A stretch of DNA of 53,247 nucleotides from Meiothermus rufus DSM 22234 (GTDB lineage Bacteria > Deinococcota > Deinococci > Deinococcales > Thermaceae), in assembly GCF_000423425.1 (NCBI RefSeq), contig NZ_AUHY01000015.1, forward strand, positions 1-53,247, given 5' to 3'. Every line of letters starts with the position of its first letter. The first letter of the stretch is position 1. Position numbers and translations under genes: made by a program. The notes beneath the pieces were generated by a model, which made no database searches, had not been told where the DNA came from, and saw only the letters and a program-made list of their open reading frames with translations. Below are positions 5,705 through 15,057 of this stretch, piece by piece.

Positions 5705-6517
5705 TCAGTCCCGGCTAATTTCGCCAAGCCGCGCTGGGAGGTTGCGCGGGGCAGCCTGAAAGCTCAGAGGGTTGGCAGGTATGCGCGAGTCGCGCCCGCC
5801 CTGGCGGATTTCGCCTTGAAGGGCGAAGCTTACTCGAGCCGCACTGTACTGGGCTTGCAGGGGGGTGGGTGGGGGGACTGGGCAGGGCTGCCGGATAGCT
5901 AGGCCCGACTCGTCGAAGCCCAGGCACTCCTCCAGGCGTACCACAAACCCGCCCGGCTGCAGATAGTCGGCCAGCAGGTTGCCGCTGGAGCGGCTCAGGG
6001 CGGTGGGGATGGTCTGGGGTAGACCGTTGGGCAGGCGGGGTGTATTGGATTCCAGATACTCCTCGTACACGTACAGCAGCCATTTATCGTTGTTGGCTGG
6101 GTCGGGGCCGGGGTTCTCCGCTCCGCTGGCCCGGCCCACCACCCAGCCGCGGTTTAGGGGGTAGATCATGATGAACTTGACCCGTTGGTCGGCTCCGGGC
6201 GGCTGGAGCAGGGCAATGGCGGGGTCTTGGCCAATGCGCCAGGTATTGGTGTGGGTGTTAGGGTTGCGTACGGTGTACCCCCCGGAGCTGCCGATGGTAA
6301 GGGTCACTCCGGGGGGATACACGAATGCGGCAGTGGCGATATAGTCGCTTACCAGGTTGCCCGCATTGCGCAAATCCTCGGTGAGGAGCTGGTTATTTTG
6401 CACAAAACGCAGGCTCTCGCTGCCGCTCTTCAGGCCGCTGGCAATCAGGGCCAGGATGGCCACCCCGATCAGCGCGGCAATGAGCATTTCGATGAGGGTG
6501 ATACCGATGTTGCGCAT
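5705..6517 (-). CDS. PilW-like minor pilin (lower operon)
   Basis: This 270-residue type IV prepilin-like protein has a short leader ending in Gly (MRNIG), then ITLIE with Glu at mature position 5, and a hydrophobic helix (MLIAALIGVAILALIASGL). The size and the position after a PilV-like gene match PilW/GspJ-type minor pilins, which help initiate pilus assembly or cap the fibre in the inner membrane. It is the last gene of the four-gene operon running 9440 to 5705. A paralog of the same type occurs at 12078-12944. Function beyond minor pilin is inferred. Confidence 0.8.
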   Translation of the reverse strand: MRNIGITLIEMLIAALIGVAILALIASGLKSGSESLRFVQNNQLLTEDLRNAGNLVSDYIATAAFVYPPGVTLTIGSSGGYTVRNPNTHTNTWRIGQDPAIALLQPPGADQRVKFIMIYPLNRGWVVGRASGAENPGPDPANNDKWLLYVYEEYLESNTPRLPNGLPQTIPTALSRSSGNLLADYLQPGGFVVRLEECLGFDESGLAIRQPCPVPPPTPLQAQYSAARVSFALQGEIRQGGRDSRIPANPLSFQAAPRNLPARLGEISRD

Positions 6518-6524
6518 AGGTTCT

Positions 6525-6899
6525 TTACTGTGGCGGCAGGGCGATCTCGGTGGAAAAGCGGAACATGCGCTCTTGTGGGCCGGTAAACTCCAGGGTTGCC
6601 CGCCGCAGGATCACCCGGTTACCAATGCTTTGGATGTCCTCGAGGCGAACGGTGGGGTTGCTAAACCCCCGGGGGGGGTTTAGCTCGGGTAGTGCTCCCG
6701 TGTGGAAGGCCGCCTGGGTAGCCCAGGCAGCCCGCAGGTTGTCGAAATAGCTGCGGGCGTAGGCTTGGGCTTGGGTGTCTATCTGGGCGTTGCGGGTAAG
6801 GGTAAAGCTCGAGCCAAAATAGCTCAGGATCAAGATACTCAGGGACAAAATGGCTAGCGCTACCATCACCTCGACAAAGGAGAACCCCTTAGGGCGCAC
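6525..6899 (-). CDS. PilV-like minor pilin (lower operon)
   Basis: This 124-residue prepilin has the leader MRPKG, mature start FSFVE with Glu5 and a hydrophobic helix (VMVALAILSLSILILSYFG). Short length and order place it with PilV/GspI-type minor pilins. It overlaps the end of the preceding GspH-like gene by 11 bases and is 7 bases from the PilW-like gene, consistent with one transcript and coupled translation. Its soluble domain is too divergent to say more. Confidence 0.8.
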   Translation of the reverse strand: MRPKGFSFVEVMVALAILSLSILILSYFGSSFTLTRNAQIDTQAQAYARSYFDNLRAAWATQAAFHTGALPELNPPRGFSNPTVRLEDIQSIGNRVILRRATLEFTGPQERMFRFSTEIALPPQ

Positions 6900-7341
6900 G
6901 TACCACCACCTTTCCCGTACTACCCACGATGTGCACGTTGAGTTCCCGGTTGCCGGGGCCCCGCAGGGTATAGGTACGGTTAGGAGCGTTCACTACCCCA
7001 TAGGGAGCGGTAAAGGTCACGGTTCCCCCACTGGGCACGCGCTGGAAAACCACCCCTGCGGGCAGCGACTTAGGGGACAAGGAGGCTAGTTCACTGCTGT
7101 GGCCCACCCGGTAGGTGCTTTCCCCCTCGTTGGCCTGAAAGGTGAAGTTGACCGACTGTCGACGGGCCTGCTGGCGGATGTTGAGTAAGTCCGCGTAAAC
7201 CTGGGTGGCTGCCTCGCGGATAATCAGGTTTTGTTGGTAGGTGCGCAGCGAGACGAAGCCCACCCCTAGCAGGATGCCCAATACCACCAGCGCGATTAAA
7301 AATTCCACCAGGCTCAAGCCGCGTTTGACCAAGGCTTTCAT
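6889..7341 (-). CDS. GspH/FimT-like pseudopilin (lower operon)
   Basis: This 150-residue prepilin has the leader MKALVKRG, then LSLVE with Glu5 and a hydrophobic helix (FLIALVVLGILLGVGFVSL), followed by REAATQVYADLLNIRQQARRQ. That conserved post-helix pattern is typical of the GspH/FimT family. It overlaps the large PilX-like gene by 4 bases (ATGA type). It corresponds to the PilA1-like protein of the upper operon at 13429-13908. Confidence 0.83.
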   Translation of the reverse strand: MKALVKRGLSLVEFLIALVVLGILLGVGFVSLRTYQQNLIIREAATQVYADLLNIRQQARRQSVNFTFQANEGESTYRVGHSSELASLSPKSLPAGVVFQRVPSGGTVTFTAPYGVVNAPNRTYTLRGPGNRELNVHIVGSTGKVVVRAP

Positions 7342-9440
7342 TGACCCACCACTTCCCAGACGCCGCGGTTAAGCTGGGCCTGCTGCCCACCGGGGAGGCG
7401 GGGCCGCAGACGGGCATCGTGGTAGATGTCCAGCTTGACCGGAGCCAGCACCCCGGTATCAGCAGCTACCAGGGCCCCGCGCAAATCCCAACGGCCCTCC
7501 AGGTTGTAGCCGCGCCCGTTTTGAATCACGCTGAAGATGGCGTTGGCCGAGTACAAAAGCCCGTCGGTGCGGAAGGCTCCAGCGGGACGGGTGCGAGCAC
7601 TGGCGTTCCAAAGGCGTTTGAGCGTGGCGTTGTCGAAGACGCTCGAGGTCAGGGCGTAGCGCGGCATGGTTTGGAGGAAGGCCACCTGGGCTTCGGTAAG
7701 CGCTACACTGCCCAGGGAGGTTTCGCCGTTGCAGGTGTGCACTCGGGCCCCTGCGGTAAGGGTTTGGTAGGTGTTGTAGTTGGCGGGGTCGTGGTTGCAG
7801 CCCTCGGCAAAGTAGACTTGATCCTCGCCGTAAGTGTAAAAGCGGGGACGGTAGCTACTGTCGCGCAGCCAGCGCTGTAGCTCGCTGCGGTTGAAGTTGG
7901 TGACCTCGGTGAGGGCCAGGTTGGGCCGGTACAGGGGGCTCTCCTGCCAATCCACTCTGGCCCCGCTACCGCAGCCCGGCTGCTGGGGGTTTTCGCGGCA
8001 GAGGCTCAGGGGAAGTTGCAGGCGGTTTGCTTCCAGCAGGTTGAGGTTTTCTGCTTGGAAAGTGTCGATGCTAAGGAAGTCGCCCATCAGCATGTTGCCT
8101 CCCGCGATCAGATTGAGCTGGGGCAGGCGGCTGGGATCGCGGTAGTCGCAGGGCTGGAGGCTATTGTCCTGGCCGCAGTCGTAGACCAAATCGCCCAGGA
8201 TGTACACGTTGCCCCGGGCCAGGATGGTGCCGTTGCCGCGCGCACGCCCCCGAATGACCACATCGCCGTTGATGAAGACCGTGCCGGAGAGGGTGATGGG
8301 GGTGGTGCTGCCGTCGATGATGACGTGGCTGGGGTTGAGGCCTAGGGTCCGGGAGTCCAGGGTCTGCACCCCGCCGCTGGGCCAGTCGGGGCGGGTGGGG
8401 TTGACCAGGATGGCCGCCCTAAGGTTACCCGCGCGGTAGCTTGCATTGCCGTTTTCCAGGCTCGAGCGCACCTCCGCCAGCCACTCTTCGTCGTCGATGA
8501 GGCGGTTGCCGTTGGCGTCGGGAATGGGTAAGGGGAAGTGGTCGGGCAGTTCGCCGTCGGGGAAACGGTTGCCAAAGGCGGCCAGGTCGTTGCGGGTGGG
8601 GTAGTTGTAGTAGAGGTTCTGTGGGGTGGCGCAGTGGCTGGGGGTGGCGCAGTCGGCGGGGGTGGGCCTTTGCCGCGTGGTAGAGCGAATGCGGGTCTGG
8701 CCGGGTTCCAGGGTGGTGAAGTACTGGCTCGAGGGCTCGAGGCGGCCACTGTACTGCTGGCGGACGGTACCCCGGGTGAGCAAGGCCCCGTGCACGGTAC
8801 CCGCCTCTTGGTTGTCTCGCATGACCAGGCTTTCCAGCACCCCTACCTTCACCCGGCGCCACCAGGTGCTGGGGTCGTTGGGGTTGGGTTCGCCCCGCAG
8901 CGCATCCAGACTGCGTACCTCGAGGTGGCAGAAGATGCAGTCGGCCTTGTTGGTTAGGAAGGGGAAATCGAAGGGAAAAGGAGCCTGGGCGACTTGGAAT
9001 ATCTGACGTAGCCGGCGGGTGGTGCCGTCGGGTAGGGTGCCGGTGGAGATCACCGTGAGCTGAACAATAGGTTCGCCCGAAGGGCTAGAGGTATCGTTGC
9101 GCGAGACCTGCACCACGAAGCGGCTACCATCGCTTAGTGCCTGGGGTGAGCCGAACAGGTTTGGCAAAGTGGCGCGGTTAGGTAGCCCTATGCGATCCAG
9201 GGCCTGCTGGTAGGCTACCACGCTAGGGGAGCTGGCCTCGGCTAAAACTTGGTGCCATAACCGGGCTACCGCCCGCTCGAGGCCAGCCTCGGCGGCGAAT
9301 TGGGCCTGCGAGGTGCGCAGGGCGTCTTGGGCGTTGCGCCGGTTGGAAAGGGAGGTCAGCATCGAGACGCTGACCAGGATAATCACGATAAACAGGAATA
9401 CCAGGGTTGAAACTAAGGTAACCCCCTTACGGCTTCGCAT
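7338..9440 (-). CDS. PilX/ComZ-like large pilus protein with CXXCH motif
   Basis: This 700-residue protein has a prepilin-like N terminus (MRSRKG, then VTLVSTLVFLFIVIILVS) lacking Glu5, followed by RTSQAQFAAEAGLERAVARL, a PilX N-terminal pattern. Residues 168-172 are CIFCH, a CXXCH c-type heme-binding motif, in a segment (FPFLTNKADC) that aligns with ALFTNR of the ComZ-like protein at 10183. Later parts are Gly/Asn-rich beta repeats (INGDVVIRGRARGNGTILAR) of a solenoid type. It is likely an exported tip or minor pilus component. The start at 9440 is supported by GGGGGG just upstream; an earlier in-frame ATG at 9482 lacks this. It is the first gene of the lower pilin operon. Confidence 0.75.
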   Translation of the reverse strand: MRSRKGVTLVSTLVFLFIVIILVSVSMLTSLSNRRNAQDALRTSQAQFAAEAGLERAVARLWHQVLAEASSPSVVAYQQALDRIGLPNRATLPNLFGSPQALSDGSRFVVQVSRNDTSSPSGEPIVQLTVISTGTLPDGTTRRLRQIFQVAQAPFPFDFPFLTNKADCIFCHLEVRSLDALRGEPNPNDPSTWWRRVKVGVLESLVMRDNQEAGTVHGALLTRGTVRQQYSGRLEPSSQYFTTLEPGQTRIRSTTRQRPTPADCATPSHCATPQNLYYNYPTRNDLAAFGNRFPDGELPDHFPLPIPDANGNRLIDDEEWLAEVRSSLENGNASYRAGNLRAAILVNPTRPDWPSGGVQTLDSRTLGLNPSHVIIDGSTTPITLSGTVFINGDVVIRGRARGNGTILARGNVYILGDLVYDCGQDNSLQPCDYRDPSRLPQLNLIAGGNMLMGDFLSIDTFQAENLNLLEANRLQLPLSLCRENPQQPGCGSGARVDWQESPLYRPNLALTEVTNFNRSELQRWLRDSSYRPRFYTYGEDQVYFAEGCNHDPANYNTYQTLTAGARVHTCNGETSLGSVALTEAQVAFLQTMPRYALTSSVFDNATLKRLWNASARTRPAGAFRTDGLLYSANAIFSVIQNGRGYNLEGRWDLRGALVAADTGVLAPVKLDIYHDARLRPRLPGGQQAQLNRGVWEVVGQ

Positions 9441-9495
9441 CGAATCCCCCCGTTGCAGTAAACCTTTGGTAATGGTCTGCAATTACCTAGATTGT

Positions 9496-9517
9496 AACAC
9501 CCCCTATTTAGGGGGTA
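9496..9517 (-). promoter_or_regulatory. C5/G5 inverted repeat upstream of lower pilin operon
   Basis: AACACCCCCT, five bases, then GGGGGTA. A near-identical element lies at 13943-13962, upstream of the other pilin operon. It could be the terminator of the response regulator gene ending at 9537, or a shared regulatory site. Confidence 0.45.
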
Positions 9518-9536
9518 CAGGGGGTCCAGGCTGGGT

Positions 9537-10118
9537 TTAGCGCAATAGACCCAAGCTGCGGGCCCGCTCGAGGGCCTCCACCCGGTTGCGCACCCCAAGC
9601 TTTTCATACAGCCGCACTAGGTGGTCTTTGACGGTTTCGGGCGATAGACCCAGGTTGCGGGCGATCTCTTTGCTGGAAAGCCCCTGGGCCATCTGCTGGA
9701 GCACCTCCTGCTCGCGCATTGTGAGGCGGGGCAGCTCTGGGGCCCGCAGGCGGGGTTCCAAACCCTGGCTGAGGCGCCGCAGGCGTTCGGCCAGGGCCTC
9801 GGGAGGCAGTTCCTTCGACCAGTAGGCGTCGGCTCCGGCGTAGGCGGCTTGCTGGATCAAGACCGGCTCGTTGAAGGTGGTCAGCAGGACGACAAGCCCC
9901 AAGTAGCGTTTTTCCCGCAGCAGGCGGGCGGCGGTAATCCCATCCATCTGCGGCATGCGCACGTCCAGCACCACCGCATCTGGCAAGTGCGCTAGGCACA
10001 GGCTTAGGGCTTCCTGGCCGTCGTTGGCCTCGCCCACCACAACAAAGCCCTCGCGCTCGAGGGCTAAGCGCAGCCCCATGCGGAACAGGGGGTGGTCGTC
10101 GGCGATGATTAGGCGCAT
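9537..10118 (-). CDS. NarL/FixJ-family response regulator
   Basis: This 193-residue protein has a receiver domain (about 1-120) with acidic pocket residues in IIADDHP, phosphoacceptor Asp52 in VVLDVRMP and KELPPEAL with the conserved Lys region. A LuxR-type helix-turn-helix follows (about 131-185: LTMREQEVLQQMAQGLSSKE). It is a DNA-binding regulator activated by phosphorylation. It lies between two minor pilin operons on the same strand, and a histidine kinase gene lies upstream of the first, so a role in pilus control is a reasonable inference. The ATG is 7 bases after TAGCCT, suggesting a leaderless transcript of its own. Confidence 0.92.
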   Translation of the reverse strand: MRLIIADDHPLFRMGLRLALEREGFVVVGEANDGQEALSLCLAHLPDAVVLDVRMPQMDGITAARLLREKRYLGLVVLLTTFNEPVLIQQAAYAGADAYWSKELPPEALAERLRRLSQGLEPRLRAPELPRLTMREQEVLQQMAQGLSSKEIARNLGLSPETVKDHLVRLYEKLGVRNRVEALERARSLGLLR

Positions 10119-10125
10119 TTCCTAC

Positions 10126-10131
10126 AGGCTA
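10126..10131 (-). promoter_or_regulatory. -10 box (TAGCCT) for response regulator gene
   Basis: TAGCCT is 7 bases before the ATG at 10118. A perfect 26-bp palindrome overlaps the region where the -35 element would sit. Confidence 0.5.
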
Positions 10132-10144
10132 ACACCAAAGCCTA

Positions 10145-10170
10145 CCCTACAAGCCCTAGGGCTTGTAGGG
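10145..10170 (-). terminator. Perfect 26-bp palindrome between ComZ-like and regulator genes
   Basis: CCCTACAAGCCCT is followed directly by its exact complement. It can act as a terminator hairpin for the pilin operon ending at 10183, but no T-run follows. It also covers the expected -35 region of the regulator gene and could be an operator. Confidence 0.5.
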
Positions 10171-10182
10171 TTCTGGGGCAGT

Positions 10183-12090
10183 TTAGTAGACCTGCTCGCG
10201 CTGGCCAAAGCTGAGAGGGGTGGCCACGCTCACCTGCACCACGCCAGTGGTGGGGAAGAACGGCGGGGCCCGGTCTTGCATACGGGGGTCGTAGGTAAAC
10301 TGGCGGGCGTAACCAGCCGTCATCTGTCCGGTCGAGCTGTTGAACTGACCAAAAGCGCCGTAGTAGTACTGGATGATGCCTCCTTGCAAGCGGATGGAGC
10401 CGCGGGGAGAGATGGTGCTATAGTTCTGCACCGTTACCTCACCCCTCGAGGTCATCAACACCCCATGTACCGTCAGGTCTTGCAAAGAGGTGTTGGTACC
10501 GTTGCCCAGCAGGATGTCGCCATCCTGGCTGTAGACCCCCAGGATGTTGTCGGCGGAGAGGTTGTTGCAGGTGGGCCGGGTCACGGTGCTGCCGCTGCGG
10601 GCAAGGGTTCCCGTGCAGGCCGGGCTTTGGTACTTAAGGTCGCCCTGAATTTGGATGTTGCGTCCACTCCCCGCATTGGCCACGGTGATCTGGGCAAAGC
10701 TGGCCAGGGCCGGGGGAGCGGTGTTGGGGTTGTTGCTATCCGAGCGGGCCGGGCCGGTGAGGTTGCTGATGCTACCTTCGGCGAAGATCACCCCGTTGAA
10801 GCTGGGGCGCTCCACCATCCAGGTGCTACCCTGCTGCCGGTACAGCACCCCATCGGGGCCGTAGCGGTAGAGAAAGCGGTCGCTCCCGCTGCAGGCCGCC
10901 GTGCGGCAGACCTCGATGTACTGGTAGCTCGAGGTCGCAGGGGTGCAGACCCCAGAGCTGTTGCAGGTGGGACGGTTCCCGCTGGCGTCAGCAGCGTAAA
11001 GGGTCAGCCGCACCACGTTGAAGTTGAGGTAGAGCCCACCCACTATGGCTGCACCGCGCTGGTTCTGGGCGTTTTCTGGCATGGGGATAAAGGCTTCCTG
11101 CCAGTTGACCTTGGGGTTTCCATCGAAAACTGGAGCATGGGTGATGCCCCCGCTGGTCCAGGAAGGGGCATTGGGGTTGGCCATCTGGGAGGGAGAAAGG
11201 AAGGTGGTGCTGTTACCCGAGCCAAAGTGCGCTCCGGGGCTGATTTCCCCGCTGCAGCTACTGGCCCCTGCGTTGCTGCAGCCGGCGCTGGTTACGTAGC
11301 CGCCAAACCAGGGGTTGAAGGAGAAGCGAAAGCGTTCGTTGGTGTGCACCGGCCCATCGAACAGGGTGCTGGCAGTGAACCAGACCCCGGTATTGGAGCG
11401 GGTGCGGTGCCGATTGGTAAACAGGGCATAGCGGGCAAAGCTACCGTTGGTCAGGAGAAAGCGGTACTCGCCCTGCACCAGCACGTTGCGCTGGTAGGGG
11501 GTGCCAGGCGAGGCGGTGACCACCATCACGTATGGCAGGGCGTAGCCCTGCACCTGGCGGGTGAGGGGGGTGGCGGGGTTGTTGTCGTTGTCCACCACAT
11601 AGCCCGAAGGAAGCTGGGCGGCACTGGGGAAAGGCTGGCCACAGGCTGGGCTGGTGGTGAAGTGGATGCGTACCTGCACGGTAGCGCCAGAGCCATCTGG
11701 GGCAAAATTTTGGCTGCAGATCATGCTGTTGACACTGGTCTGCAGGTTGGCGGCCAGAGTGGCCAAGCGGCTCGCCACGGTGGCTGCGTTGGGCAGGGTA
11801 CCGTTGCCGCCGTAATACCATATGTCGCTGGTATTAATGCCGCCCATGCTGGGGTTGGCCGAGCGCACGATGGCTTCCAGGCTGGCCCGCACGTCGTTTG
11901 AGAGCAAGGCCGAGGCAGCCACCGCCCCACCGCGGGCCAGGTTGATGGCCTGGGCCATGGCGCTGTTGTCCCGGCTGGTGCGCAGGTCGTTCATGGTGCG
12001 GGTAAAGATGAGGCCGCTGACTACGCTTAGCAGCAAAATGACGGTTAGGGCCACCACGATGGCGATGCCCTGGGGCTTCATGGATTGCAT
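10183..12090 (-). CDS. ComZ-like DUF4900 pilus-associated protein
   Basis: This 635-residue protein has a prepilin-like N terminus (MQSMKPQG, then IAIVVALTVILLLSVVSG) without Glu5. The segment FARYALFTNRHRT, then WFTASTLFDGPVHTNERFRF, is characteristic of DUF4900 proteins of Thermus and Deinococcus. The order pilA1-, pilA2-, pilA3-like and then this gene equals that of Thermus thermophilus, where ComZ is a DNA-uptake factor at the pilus tip. It has several Cys residues in the soluble domain but no CXXCH. The start has GGTGG 7 bases upstream and overlaps the previous gene by 13 bases. A role in transformation is inferred from synteny. Confidence 0.75.
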   Translation of the reverse strand: MQSMKPQGIAIVVALTVILLLSVVSGLIFTRTMNDLRTSRDNSAMAQAINLARGGAVAASALLSNDVRASLEAIVRSANPSMGGINTSDIWYYGGNGTLPNAATVASRLATLAANLQTSVNSMICSQNFAPDGSGATVQVRIHFTTSPACGQPFPSAAQLPSGYVVDNDNNPATPLTRQVQGYALPYVMVVTASPGTPYQRNVLVQGEYRFLLTNGSFARYALFTNRHRTRSNTGVWFTASTLFDGPVHTNERFRFSFNPWFGGYVTSAGCSNAGASSCSGEISPGAHFGSGNSTTFLSPSQMANPNAPSWTSGGITHAPVFDGNPKVNWQEAFIPMPENAQNQRGAAIVGGLYLNFNVVRLTLYAADASGNRPTCNSSGVCTPATSSYQYIEVCRTAACSGSDRFLYRYGPDGVLYRQQGSTWMVERPSFNGVIFAEGSISNLTGPARSDSNNPNTAPPALASFAQITVANAGSGRNIQIQGDLKYQSPACTGTLARSGSTVTRPTCNNLSADNILGVYSQDGDILLGNGTNTSLQDLTVHGVLMTSRGEVTVQNYSTISPRGSIRLQGGIIQYYYGAFGQFNSSTGQMTAGYARQFTYDPRMQDRAPPFFPTTGVVQVSVATPLSFGQREQVY

Positions 12091-12944
12091 AGGTTCACCA
12101 CCTTTGCTTGGTAGTAGAGGGTGTTAATCATGTCTACCTGGCCGGTATAGGTGCGCTCCACGTTGCGCCCCTGCAGGGGAACCTGGGTGCCCAGGGTAAA
12201 CTGCACCCGCCGCAGGGAAAACTCTGCTCCCCCACTGGTGAAGTAGGGCTGTACCCGCCCGCCGACCAGATAGCCCGTGGGGTTGCGCTCCTCGCTGATG
12301 GCGCTGCTGGTGCGCCGCTGGTAGACATAATCGATGCGAAAGTTGCTTATATCGAAGGCTACATCGGTAGGGGCGGTATCGCCCTGCACCCGGTAGATTA
12401 GCTTTCGGTTGGCCGCATCGTAACTGTAGCCCATCAGGTTGACCACCGCGGCCAGGGTTTCGGAGGTGGCGCTGACGGGCAGGTTGTTACAGGTGGTGGT
12501 GAGGCCAAACAGGTTGAGGCCGCTGGGTACAGGCAGGCTGCTGGTGCGGGTGATGACCGCGTTGCCGTTGCCATCCACCACCACCAGCCGGCTGCCTACG
12601 GGAACCTCGGTAGCGAGGGTGGCAGAGTTGCTTACCAGGGTAAGGGCGCTCCCCGCTACGGCACTCACCGAGTACCCAGCGCCACCGGCCACCTGGGCAA
12701 AGGAGATGCTGGTGGGGCTGGTGTCAAAGGGCGTGTGGGTCACGATGGCAAAAGCTGCGGTGCGCAAGTCCTGGCTCAGCACCTCCAGCACCCGCCGGGC
12801 TTTGTTTTGGGCCGCACTGATGGCCTCGTTGGACTGGTTGAGCTGGAGACCCTGGATGCTGGTGTTAAAGGCAAAGGCCATCACAATGACCAGCACCGCC
12901 AGGGCCAGCAGAAGCTCGAGGATGGTCAAACCTTGAGAACGCAC
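12078..12944 (-). CDS. PilW-like minor pilin, PilA3-type (upper operon)
   Basis: This 288-residue prepilin starts at a GTG preceded by AGGGGAGG (leader VRSQG), then LTILE with Glu5 and a hydrophobic helix (LLLALAVLVIVMAFAFN). Size and the QDLRTAAF segment fit the PilW group; position matches pilA3 of Thermus thermophilus. A longer in-frame reading back to 13028 would run into the preceding gene and lacks a leader peptide. It is the third gene of the upper pilin operon. Confidence 0.8.
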   Translation of the reverse strand: MRSQGLTILELLLALAVLVIVMAFAFNTSIQGLQLNQSNEAISAAQNKARRVLEVLSQDLRTAAFAIVTHTPFDTSPTSISFAQVAGGAGYSVSAVAGSALTLVSNSATLATEVPVGSRLVVVDGNGNAVITRTSSLPVPSGLNLFGLTTTCNNLPVSATSETLAAVVNLMGYSYDAANRKLIYRVQGDTAPTDVAFDISNFRIDYVYQRRTSSAISEERNPTGYLVGGRVQPYFTSGGAEFSLRRVQFTLGTQVPLQGRNVERTYTGQVDMINTLYYQAKVVNLCNP

Positions 12945-12955
12945 AGAAACCTCCC

Positions 12956-13432
12956 CTAGTTGATGTTGGTCACGATTTCGCTGCCGGCTGCGGCGGGTGA
13001 GGGGCCAATGATGCTCTGGCGCACGCACTGCTCGCCTTCGGGGCTTTGCCAGCAGACCTCGATGCGGTACTGGTGAATCTGCCAGCCGCTACCTGCCCAG
13101 GAGGGGGTACCCTGGTTGGCGATGCGGGCGCGGTAAAGGTTGATGTTGCCGAACTGCTGTTCGGCAGTGAGGCTGGCAAAGCCAGTGCTGGGGTTGCTGA
13201 GCTGGCCATAGCCCCACTCGAGGCTGCCGCCCACCGCGGGCAGGGCCCGGTCGTCGGCCTCGAGGATTTGCCGGCCCAAGAATATGCCAAGCTGGTTGGC
13301 CTGAGCCCGACCTCCCACCACGCTGGTCTGGCGCATGTTGCCCACCAGCAGGGTGGTAAACAACCCCAGTACGATGGCCAGGGCCCCTGCTGCCACAATC
13401 ACCTCGATAAAGGTCAGACCCCGGTTTCTCAT
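12956..13432 (-). CDS. PilV-like minor pilin, PilA2-type (upper operon)
   Basis: This 158-residue prepilin has the leader MRNRG, mature LTFIE with Glu5 and a hydrophobic helix (VIVAAGALAIVLGLFTTLLV). Order and length match the PilV/PilA2 position. Two Cys residues near the C terminus (EVCWQSPEGEQC) could form a disulfide in the exported domain. It overlaps the preceding gene by 4 bases. Confidence 0.8.
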   Translation of the reverse strand: MRNRGLTFIEVIVAAGALAIVLGLFTTLLVGNMRQTSVVGGRAQANQLGIFLGRQILEADDRALPAVGGSLEWGYGQLSNPSTGFASLTAEQQFGNINLYRARIANQGTPSWAGSGWQIHQYRIEVCWQSPEGEQCVRQSIIGPSPAAAGSEIVTNIN

Positions 13433-13908
13433 TGCCGGCGCACCTCCCCGATGAGGGTAGCTGTAAGGGTGTGGGTTCGCCCGTTGGCCGAGATGGTGAA
13501 CTGGCGGTTGGCTGGGAAGCTACTGGAGAAGTTGACCTTGCCCGGCGAGGTGAAGGTGGCCAGGGTTCCTTCGCTCAGGCTACAGGTGACCCCGCTGGGC
13601 AGGGTTACGCTGCGCAGTACGCTGCCATCGACCTGGGACTCTACCCGCAGGGTGTTTCCGCTGCGCACTAGCAGGAAGTTGGTGCCGCCCCGGCTGGCCG
13701 CTGCGGTGGCCCCCTGCCAGAAGAGCTGGCGAATCTGATCCACGGCAGCCGCAGCCTGCTGGCGCTGGCCCAGGGTGCGGAACTGGGCGATGCCGATCCC
13801 GGCTGCTACCCCCAGAATGGCCATCACAATCAGGAGCTCGAGCAGGGTGAACCCCAGGGGCCGCCCCGTTGATGGATGGGTTTTCTTTAACTCTAGCCCT
13901 TCAGACAT
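13429..13908 (-). CDS. GspH/FimT-like pseudopilin, PilA1-type (upper operon)
   Basis: This 159-residue prepilin has an unusually long leader (MSEGLELKKTHPSTGRPLG) before FTLLE, with Glu5 and the helix LLIVMAILGVAAGIGIAQF. It is the first gene of the upper minor pilin operon. The start is uncertain: the ATG at 13908 follows AGGCGG closely, and an in-frame GTG at 13947 exists. The FTLLELLIV pattern and the size fit GspH/FimT or PilA1-type proteins. Confidence 0.78.
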   Translation of the reverse strand: MSEGLELKKTHPSTGRPLGFTLLELLIVMAILGVAAGIGIAQFRTLGQRQQAAAAVDQIRQLFWQGATAAASRGGTNFLLVRSGNTLRVESQVDGSVLRSVTLPSGVTCSLSEGTLATFTSPGKVNFSSSFPANRQFTISANGRTHTLTATLIGEVRRQ

Positions 13909-13942
13909 ACCGCCTTTAGTTTGGGGAAAGCAGGCTGAGTCG

Positions 13943-13962
13943 AACACCCCCTGTTGGGGGTT
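13943..13962 (-). promoter_or_regulatory. C5/G5 inverted repeat upstream of upper pilin operon
   Basis: AACACCCCCT, three bases, then GGGGGTT. It shares its first ten bases with the element at 9496-9517 and lies at the matching place ahead of a pilin operon. Confidence 0.45.
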
Positions 13963-14061
13963 AGGGCGTTACATAGATATGGTTACTTGCATTATGCCAA
14001 GAGGATGTTTGCGCGTGTGGGGGCGGGTTTGGTGGTTATTGATATGTCTGGCTGGGGTGGG

Positions 14062-15057
14062 TCAAATCTCACACAGCCACAGCCTGAGCCGGGTGCCCTG
14101 CCCCGAGGAGGCCAGGTTTTCCAGCCGTCCTCCGTGTACCTCGGCCACCCGGCGGGCCACGTACAGCCCCAGCCCGGCGCTGCCGGCCCGCACCCCCCGC
14201 AGGCGTTGGCTGCGGAAGGGCTGGGAGAGGGTTTCCAGGCTATCGGGCAGGCCGGGGCCATCGTCCTCGACCTCGAGCCAGCCCTCTCCCGCCCGCAGCA
14301 CCACCCGGCTTCGGGCATGGCGCAGGGCATTTTCCACCAGGTTGGCCACGGCCCGCTCGAGCAAAAGCCGCTCGGCCCGGGCTTGCCCGGCCCCTTCAAT
14401 CTCCAGCCAGAGGCCGCGCTTTTGCGCCTGCTGGGCGTAGCGCAGGCGAAAATCCTCCAGAACGGAGCGCAGGTTGAGGTTTTCCGGCTGGATGCGCTGG
14501 GCCTCGAGGTGGCTGGCGGTGAGCAGGTTTTCCACCAGCTGATAGCTCCGGTTCAGTTCTTCCTGCAGGGTACGCAACATCTCCTTGCGCTTTTCCGGCC
14601 CGATTTTGTCGGCTTCCTCCAGGTATTCCAGCGCCCGCAGGCTGGCCAGCAGGGGGGTTTTGAGGTCGTGGGTCAGGGCGGCGTAAGTGGCCTCGCGGGC
14701 CTCGAGCAGCGCGCGCAGGTGATCCAGCACCTCCTCGAAGCCCTCGCGTAGCTGGGCGATCTCGGCGGGGGGACGCTGTTTGGGGGTAGGGAGGGATAGC
14801 TCGGCCAGGGTGCGGTTGGCTCCGCGTAGGTAATACAGGCTGCGGGTGAGCTCGTCCACCGGCTGGAGCAGGGTGTGGGCTAGCCCATAGCCCACTCCGG
14901 CAGCCACCAGGGCCAGCACCCCCACCCAGGCCAGCAGGAAAAGCGAGGTTTGGGGGGGGCGCTCTGGGTTGGCCATCCAGAAGGTCAGCACGATGACCAG
15001 GTTGGGCACAAAGGCCAGCAGGCCGATGACCCAGGCCAGTTGGTGCTTGAGCGGCAT
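14062..15057 (-). CDS. HisKA-type sensor histidine kinase
   Basis: This 331-residue membrane kinase has two N-terminal membrane helices (about 8-28 and 38-60) with a very short loop between them, a HAMP-like linker, a HisKA domain with His130 in ALTHDLKTPL, and an HATPase domain with N box NLVENALRHA, G1 DDGPGLP and G2 GSAGLGLYVARR. The tiny periplasmic loop argues for sensing within the membrane or by a partner. It lies upstream of the pilin operon on the same strand. The nearest response regulator (9537-10118) is NarL type, which is not the usual partner of HisKA kinases. ATG 6 bases after TAAACT suggests leaderless expression. Confidence 0.92.
   Translation of the reverse strand: MPLKHQLAWVIGLLAFVPNLVIVLTFWMANPERPPQTSLFLLAWVGVLALVAAGVGYGLAHTLLQPVDELTRSLYYLRGANRTLAELSLPTPKQRPPAEIAQLREGFEEVLDHLRALLEAREATYAALTHDLKTPLLASLRALEYLEEADKIGPEKRKEMLRTLQEELNRSYQLVENLLTASHLEAQRIQPENLNLRSVLEDFRLRYAQQAQKRGLWLEIEGAGQARAERLLLERAVANLVENALRHARSRVVLRAGEGWLEVEDDGPGLPDSLETLSQPFRSQRLRGVRAGSAGLGLYVARRVAEVHGGRLENLASSGQGTRLRLWLCEI

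Follow-up and report, generated by a model that had tools for sequence, protein, structure and literature searches.

A putative tip pilin of Meiothermus rufus with a conserved CxxCH motif and a predicted heme c site

The window analysed here is the whole stretch of 53,247 nucleotides from Meiothermus rufus DSM 22234 (contig NZ_AUHY01000015.1), in which a gene for a large pilin-like protein, P0001, starts with the ATG at position 9440 of the minus strand (Table 1). This gene is the first of a four-gene minor-pilin cassette in which the K-like gene is followed by H-, I- and J-like genes, and a Deinococcus plasmid has the K-H-I-J gene order likewise. Going upstream from the cassette, a response regulator comes first, then a further set of four pilin genes in which P0002 is the K-like member, and then a histidine kinase. 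A PilY1 search gave no match, and its controls were without a match too.

Positions 5705-15057 of the window can be read as a modular locus that comprises a kinase, an exchangeable four-gene minor-pilin cassette, a response regulator and a constant cassette of the P0001 type (family A). The CxxCH family A cassette is constant beside the regulator in other genomes of the Meiothermus type, where the kinase-regulator slot holds a cassette of the DUF4900 type (L090, L092), of a second CxxCH family, family B (L077), or of a third type (L091). This arrangement suggests that sets of pilus tip proteins are swapped under one two-component system.

Table 1. Features of the P0001 locus, in coordinates of the window.
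Feature	Position	Strand	Basis
Minor pilin, GspJ/PilW-like	5705..6517	-	prepilin-type N-terminus; no Pfam match
Minor pilin, GspI/PilV-like	6525..6899	-	N_methyl
Minor pilin, GspH/FimT-like, cassette gene 2	6889..7341	-	N_methyl
P0001 (family A), CxxCH pilin of PilX/GspK/ComZ type, predicted tip pilin, 700 aa	7338..9440	-	PilX_N, fold match to ComZ
Beta-solenoid insert, ice-binding-protein-like, about residues 155-677	7410..8978	-	FfIBP Z 13.1 over 192 residues
EF-hand-like calcium loop DANGNRLIDDEE, residues 308-319	8484..8519	-	conserved in families A and B
Cys264 and Cys270, likely disulfide; in 24/24 homologs, including the CxxCH-less L025	8631..8651	-	homolog alignment
CIFCH (residues 168-172) where the solenoid joins the pilin; predicted site of heme c attachment	8925..8939	-	sequence, conservation, model
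Prepilin helix (residues 4-68) and pilin-like head (to about 154)	8979..9440	-	sequence, model, structure alignment
LuxR-type response regulator immediately upstream of the P0001 cassette	9537..10118	-	Response_reg, GerE
P0002, ComZ-like paralog (DUF4900) without CxxCH, gene 4 of the upstream minor-pilin cassette	10183..12090	-	PF16241

The CIFCH motif is encoded by the codons TGC ATC TTC TGC CAC (8939..8925, minus strand), and the translated open reading frame agrees exactly with the coordinates and residue numbers given for it in a preliminary description of this DNA. Each P0001 protein has a single CxxCH. With 10 cysteines and 9 histidines in the protein, letter-shuffled versions of P0001 contained a CxxCH in just 0.2% of trials. 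The preliminary description also held that the ComZ-like paralog lacks the motif, which inspection of the P0002 sequence bore out, and that the motif aligns with ALFTNR of that paralog (residues 222-227); hhalign chooses the same register, although at a probability of 0.3% and an E of 0.18 the choice is not statistically supported. The AF2 model of P0002 had a pLDDT of 36.

P0001 has a prepilin cleavage site after G6, and the residue at +5 is Ser, not Glu. Its match to PilX_N (E 1.8e-4, 21.8 bits) lies under the Pfam cut-off of 25.5, and the other Pfam match is a weak MinC_C-like (beta-helix) stretch. PF16241 (DUF4900), which matches P0002 with an E of 1.3e-27, has no match in P0001, and neither Pfam nor NCBIfam annotates the P0001 family specifically. 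An AF2 model built from 14 sequences, without cofactor (pLDDT 83, pTM 0.76), combines a long helix at the N-terminus with a small pilin-like sheet and a large beta-solenoid; CIFCH is placed in the first linker into the solenoid, in a stretch modelled as a strand (161-167), a turn (169-171) and a strand (173-177).

Neither a sequence search of P0001 against solved structures nor Foldseek with the model at E <= 0.001 returned a relative. The top VIA-align match of the model was ComZ (6qvi), with Z 15.5 over 342 residues and an rmsd of 11.0 over both domains, followed by ice-binding beta-solenoids over residues 155-677 (Z 12-13, rmsd 3.1-3.3); the pilin head matched the minor pilin 7o5y and PilA2 of Thermus thermophilus (6qvf). 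Because of the ComZ fold match and the four-gene minor-pilin cassette, the earlier label of a PilX/ComZ-like pilus protein stands, and P0001 is predicted to be a tip pilin of the ComZ/GspK type.

Searching the order's 111 genomes with P0001 turned up 24 loci with long matches (L002-L025). The motif is present in 23 of the 24, and its surroundings always resemble F-A-L-L-T-N-x-A-x-C-x-[F/L]-C-H. The preliminary description had named a lack of conservation in orthologs as a refutation of the heme reading, and this refutation did not occur. The sole exception, L025 (G073:C43), reads G-V-F-S-N at this place; it has lost both cysteines and the histidine together and has retained Cys264, Cys270, Cys422 and Cys431. 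L025 is thereby a natural control for the role of the cofactor, as a family A pilin without the three residues. A profile of the CxxCH domain found 41 places in 33 genomes, 40 of them with CxxCH, a count that is biased because the profile was made from CxxCH sequences, the 23 of 24 being less so.

The extra profile places revealed family B, a second, paralogous family of CxxCH pilins with the motif AMLSETTNC[M/I]YCHLxVxGDVGSL. Its loci, among them L077:12981-15221, L083, L084, L085 and L086, share an invariant C[MI][YF]CHLxVxGDVGSL and belong to no Pfam family. hhalign shows families A and B to be homologous (99.9%, E 1.3e-31), yet their identity is just 17-26%, and C168, C171 and H172 are found in all 25 sequences of a joint alignment (13 from A, 12 from B). 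Conservation in both families indicates that the motif is under strong, joint constraint, and because nearly all relatives found have kept CxxCH, the cofactor site is probably real. The EF-hand-like loop is shared as well: D308 and D316 occur in 23/25 sequences of the joint alignment, E319 is nearly invariant in A2, and the corresponding stretch of family B reads DxDGDGIPD (e.g. L077, L083). The two residues inside CxxCH are hydrophobic or aromatic (IF, VF, MY, IY, LF, VL, VM, MF), and a homolog on a Deinococcus megaplasmid has CVMCH at the equivalent position. A scan of genome contigs with the family A pattern gave matches in Deinococcota only, a plasmid search returned one record, from Deinococcus, and a scan of viral sequences with family B gave no matches.

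The genome has a System I cytochrome c maturation (Ccm) apparatus, with CcmE and CcmF both on contig C10. Every genome with the motif has Ccm too, but because nearly the whole phylum has Ccm (CcmE in 108/111 genomes), this co-occurrence does not discriminate; the genomes without CcmE (G002, G086, G098) have no CxxCH pilin, and three genomes are too few to count. As a side observation, the Ccm region at L122:1377-2363 (contig C10) encodes a TPR protein of the CcmH/CycH type that carries a fused cytochrome c domain (CAACH) at its C-terminus.

TGY-N6-TGY-CAY sites number 124 in the genome compared with 69 in a reversed control. We called open reading frames around the first 100 of the 124 listed sites and ran Pfam on those whose products are likely to be exported. 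These 100 sites yielded 18 exported or cytochrome-type CxxCH proteins besides P0001, of which 16 match heme families above the Pfam cut-off (Cytochrom_C/CBB3, SoxA-TsdA, cytochrome c7, P460, Haem_bd and CCP_MauG). One of the remaining two, a urate-oxidase-type membrane protein, matches a heme family under the cut-off, and for the other, a YncE-like propeller, no heme family matched. Among the CxxCH proteins without an export signal that were scanned, no cytochrome match was found except in L133, a cytochrome that is included in the 18. With 16 of 18 matching, an exported CxxCH in M. rufus normally means heme c. Separately, the YncE-like beta-propeller, which is exported and has an internal CFTCH (L130:1184-2281, contig C16), is another possible unrecognised heme protein.

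Because of the Ccm system and this census, we favour heme c over zinc or a disulfide at the motif, both of which are less likely. Our preferred reading, judged somewhat probable, is that P0001 is a GspK/ComZ-type tip pilin with one predicted c-type heme, attached by Ccm at the junction of head and solenoid. The bacterial synthase CcsBA (System II) needs little beyond CxxCH in a short peptide (PMC8112865); M. rufus has System I. On the other side, no cytochrome domain matched in Pfam at E up to 5, either in P0001 or in the family B and other members. Nor does the joint alignment hold a His, Met or Cys conserved across families A and B, besides the CxxCH histidine, that could be the sixth iron ligand; the nearest candidate, His217, is present in 18/24 homologs. 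Heme c proteins with a 5-coordinate or water-ligated iron exist. Because some of them lack a protein-derived sixth ligand (PMC12889525), its absence weakens the heme case and is not fatal to it. Heme on an unexpected fold is credible because sCache_heme and TfcP are precedents. The heme attachment proposed earlier thus keeps the backing of conservation, Ccm and the census, and is weakened by the missing cytochrome domain and sixth ligand.

Among the alternatives, CxxC in the linker could be a disulfide, either structural or redox-active, with the histidine kept for packing and no cofactor. Disulfides appear normal in P0001 because it has four further apparent cysteine pairs (264/270 and 422/431 are kept in 24/24 homologs), and the modelled turn would set both motif cysteines one helical turn apart. 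We nevertheless regard this as unlikely: His172 and the cysteines are equally invariant in families A and B and are lost together in L025, and the other exported CxxCH motifs at the 100 sites of the census are nearly always heme sites. It is more unlikely still that CxxCH provides three ligands of a structural site for zinc or another metal, with an acidic residue or water as the fourth. A conserved D/N/E before the first cysteine and an Asp a few residues past the histidine could supply a ligand, and several non-exported CxxCH proteins of the genome, one of which weakly matches a zinc ribbon, belong to kinds known for metal binding. However, it is unusual for extracytoplasmic proteins in an oxidising setting, with disulfides, to bind zinc through cysteine, a fourth ligand invariant across families A and B was not found in the joint alignment, and the XX pair has the hydrophobic or aromatic character noted above. 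The preliminary description's proposal that a heme pilin links the pilus to electron transfer, with the tip as an end point, finds no support and is very improbable: heme c is redox-active and the tip is exposed to the outside, but there is one motif per subunit and no conserved sixth ligand, no multiheme cytochrome was found in the cassette or the adjacent genes read, and TfcP, the only heme protein linked to a pilus tip that we found, does not serve electron transport (PMC8833165). One heme per filament conducts poorly; a role in structure or sensing is likelier.

If P0001 is a heme pilin, the prepilin would be inserted in the inner membrane, and its exported domain would receive heme from Ccm before or during folding. 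The heme would be bonded to Cys168 and Cys171, with His172 as the proximal ligand, and would be located at the hinge of pilin head and beta-solenoid. The finished K-type subunit would then join its H-, I- and J-like cassette partners, with which it may form the complex for the priming and the tip of a type IV pilus, and end at the pilus tip. Heme, the nearby EF-hand-like calcium loop and the disulfides would most likely lock the junction or the tip domain in an assembly-competent state. An open or weakly held sixth site may let the heme sense redox state or a small ligand, and the calcium loop is a possible partner of the heme in a structural or sensing role. The data establish where the motif lies, that it is conserved, how the cassette is made up and that Ccm is present, with the fold established by prediction; from them we infer heme attachment, a tip location and a stabilising or sensing role for P0001. 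Tentatively, and with slightly less than even confidence, we propose further that the tip subunit carries covalent heme c, that priming depends on cytochrome c maturation, and that the tip responds to redox, O2 or NO outside the cell.

A literature search for pilin with CxxCH or heme returned no heme-bearing pilin and no earlier report of P0001. If heme is bound, P0001 would be a heme protein integral to the pilus tip complex, a combination that this search did not return, and pilus assembly in Deinococcota would be tied to the Ccm system. Should the site turn out to hold zinc or to form a disulfide, the invariance of CxxCH at the hinge of pilin and solenoid would still identify it as functional.

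Compared with known systems, P0001 shares with the PilX/GspK minor pilins a prepilin helix without Glu5 and a large K-type subunit encoded with H, I and J types, and differs from them in its much larger size, its solenoid and CxxCH, and its PilX_N score below the cut-off. In ComZ of T. thermophilus, a solenoid is inserted before the last strand of a pilin fold, and the tip has been argued to be the only place where the protein fits (PMC6561018). ComZ resembles P0001 in its pilin-like head, large inserted beta-solenoid and minor-pilin neighbours; P0001 has CxxCH and the EF-hand-like loop in addition, and its cassette is a distinct one that adjoins a response regulator. No sequence similarity to ComZ in the PDB is detectable, and DNA binding is a feature of ComZ for which P0001 gives no evidence. 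TfcP of Myxococcus xanthus, a heme chaperone of PilY1, is a heme c protein outside the pilus that is needed by a minor-pilin/PilY1 tip complex (PMC8833165). It likewise ties heme c (CxxCH) and calcium to such a complex, but it is a soluble periplasmic cytochrome c, whereas P0001 has a prepilin N-terminus in place of the signal peptide I, and no cytochrome c domain, the two features of the TfcP type. In sCache_heme (DUF3365/Tll0287), an exported non-cytochrome fold whose CxxCH is 99% conserved, heme c has been proved (PMC12889525). Its Cache fold and sensor function set it apart from a pilin with a beta-solenoid, and the likeness to P0001 lies in a nearly invariant CxxCH within a short helical turn and in a sixth ligand that is not always present.
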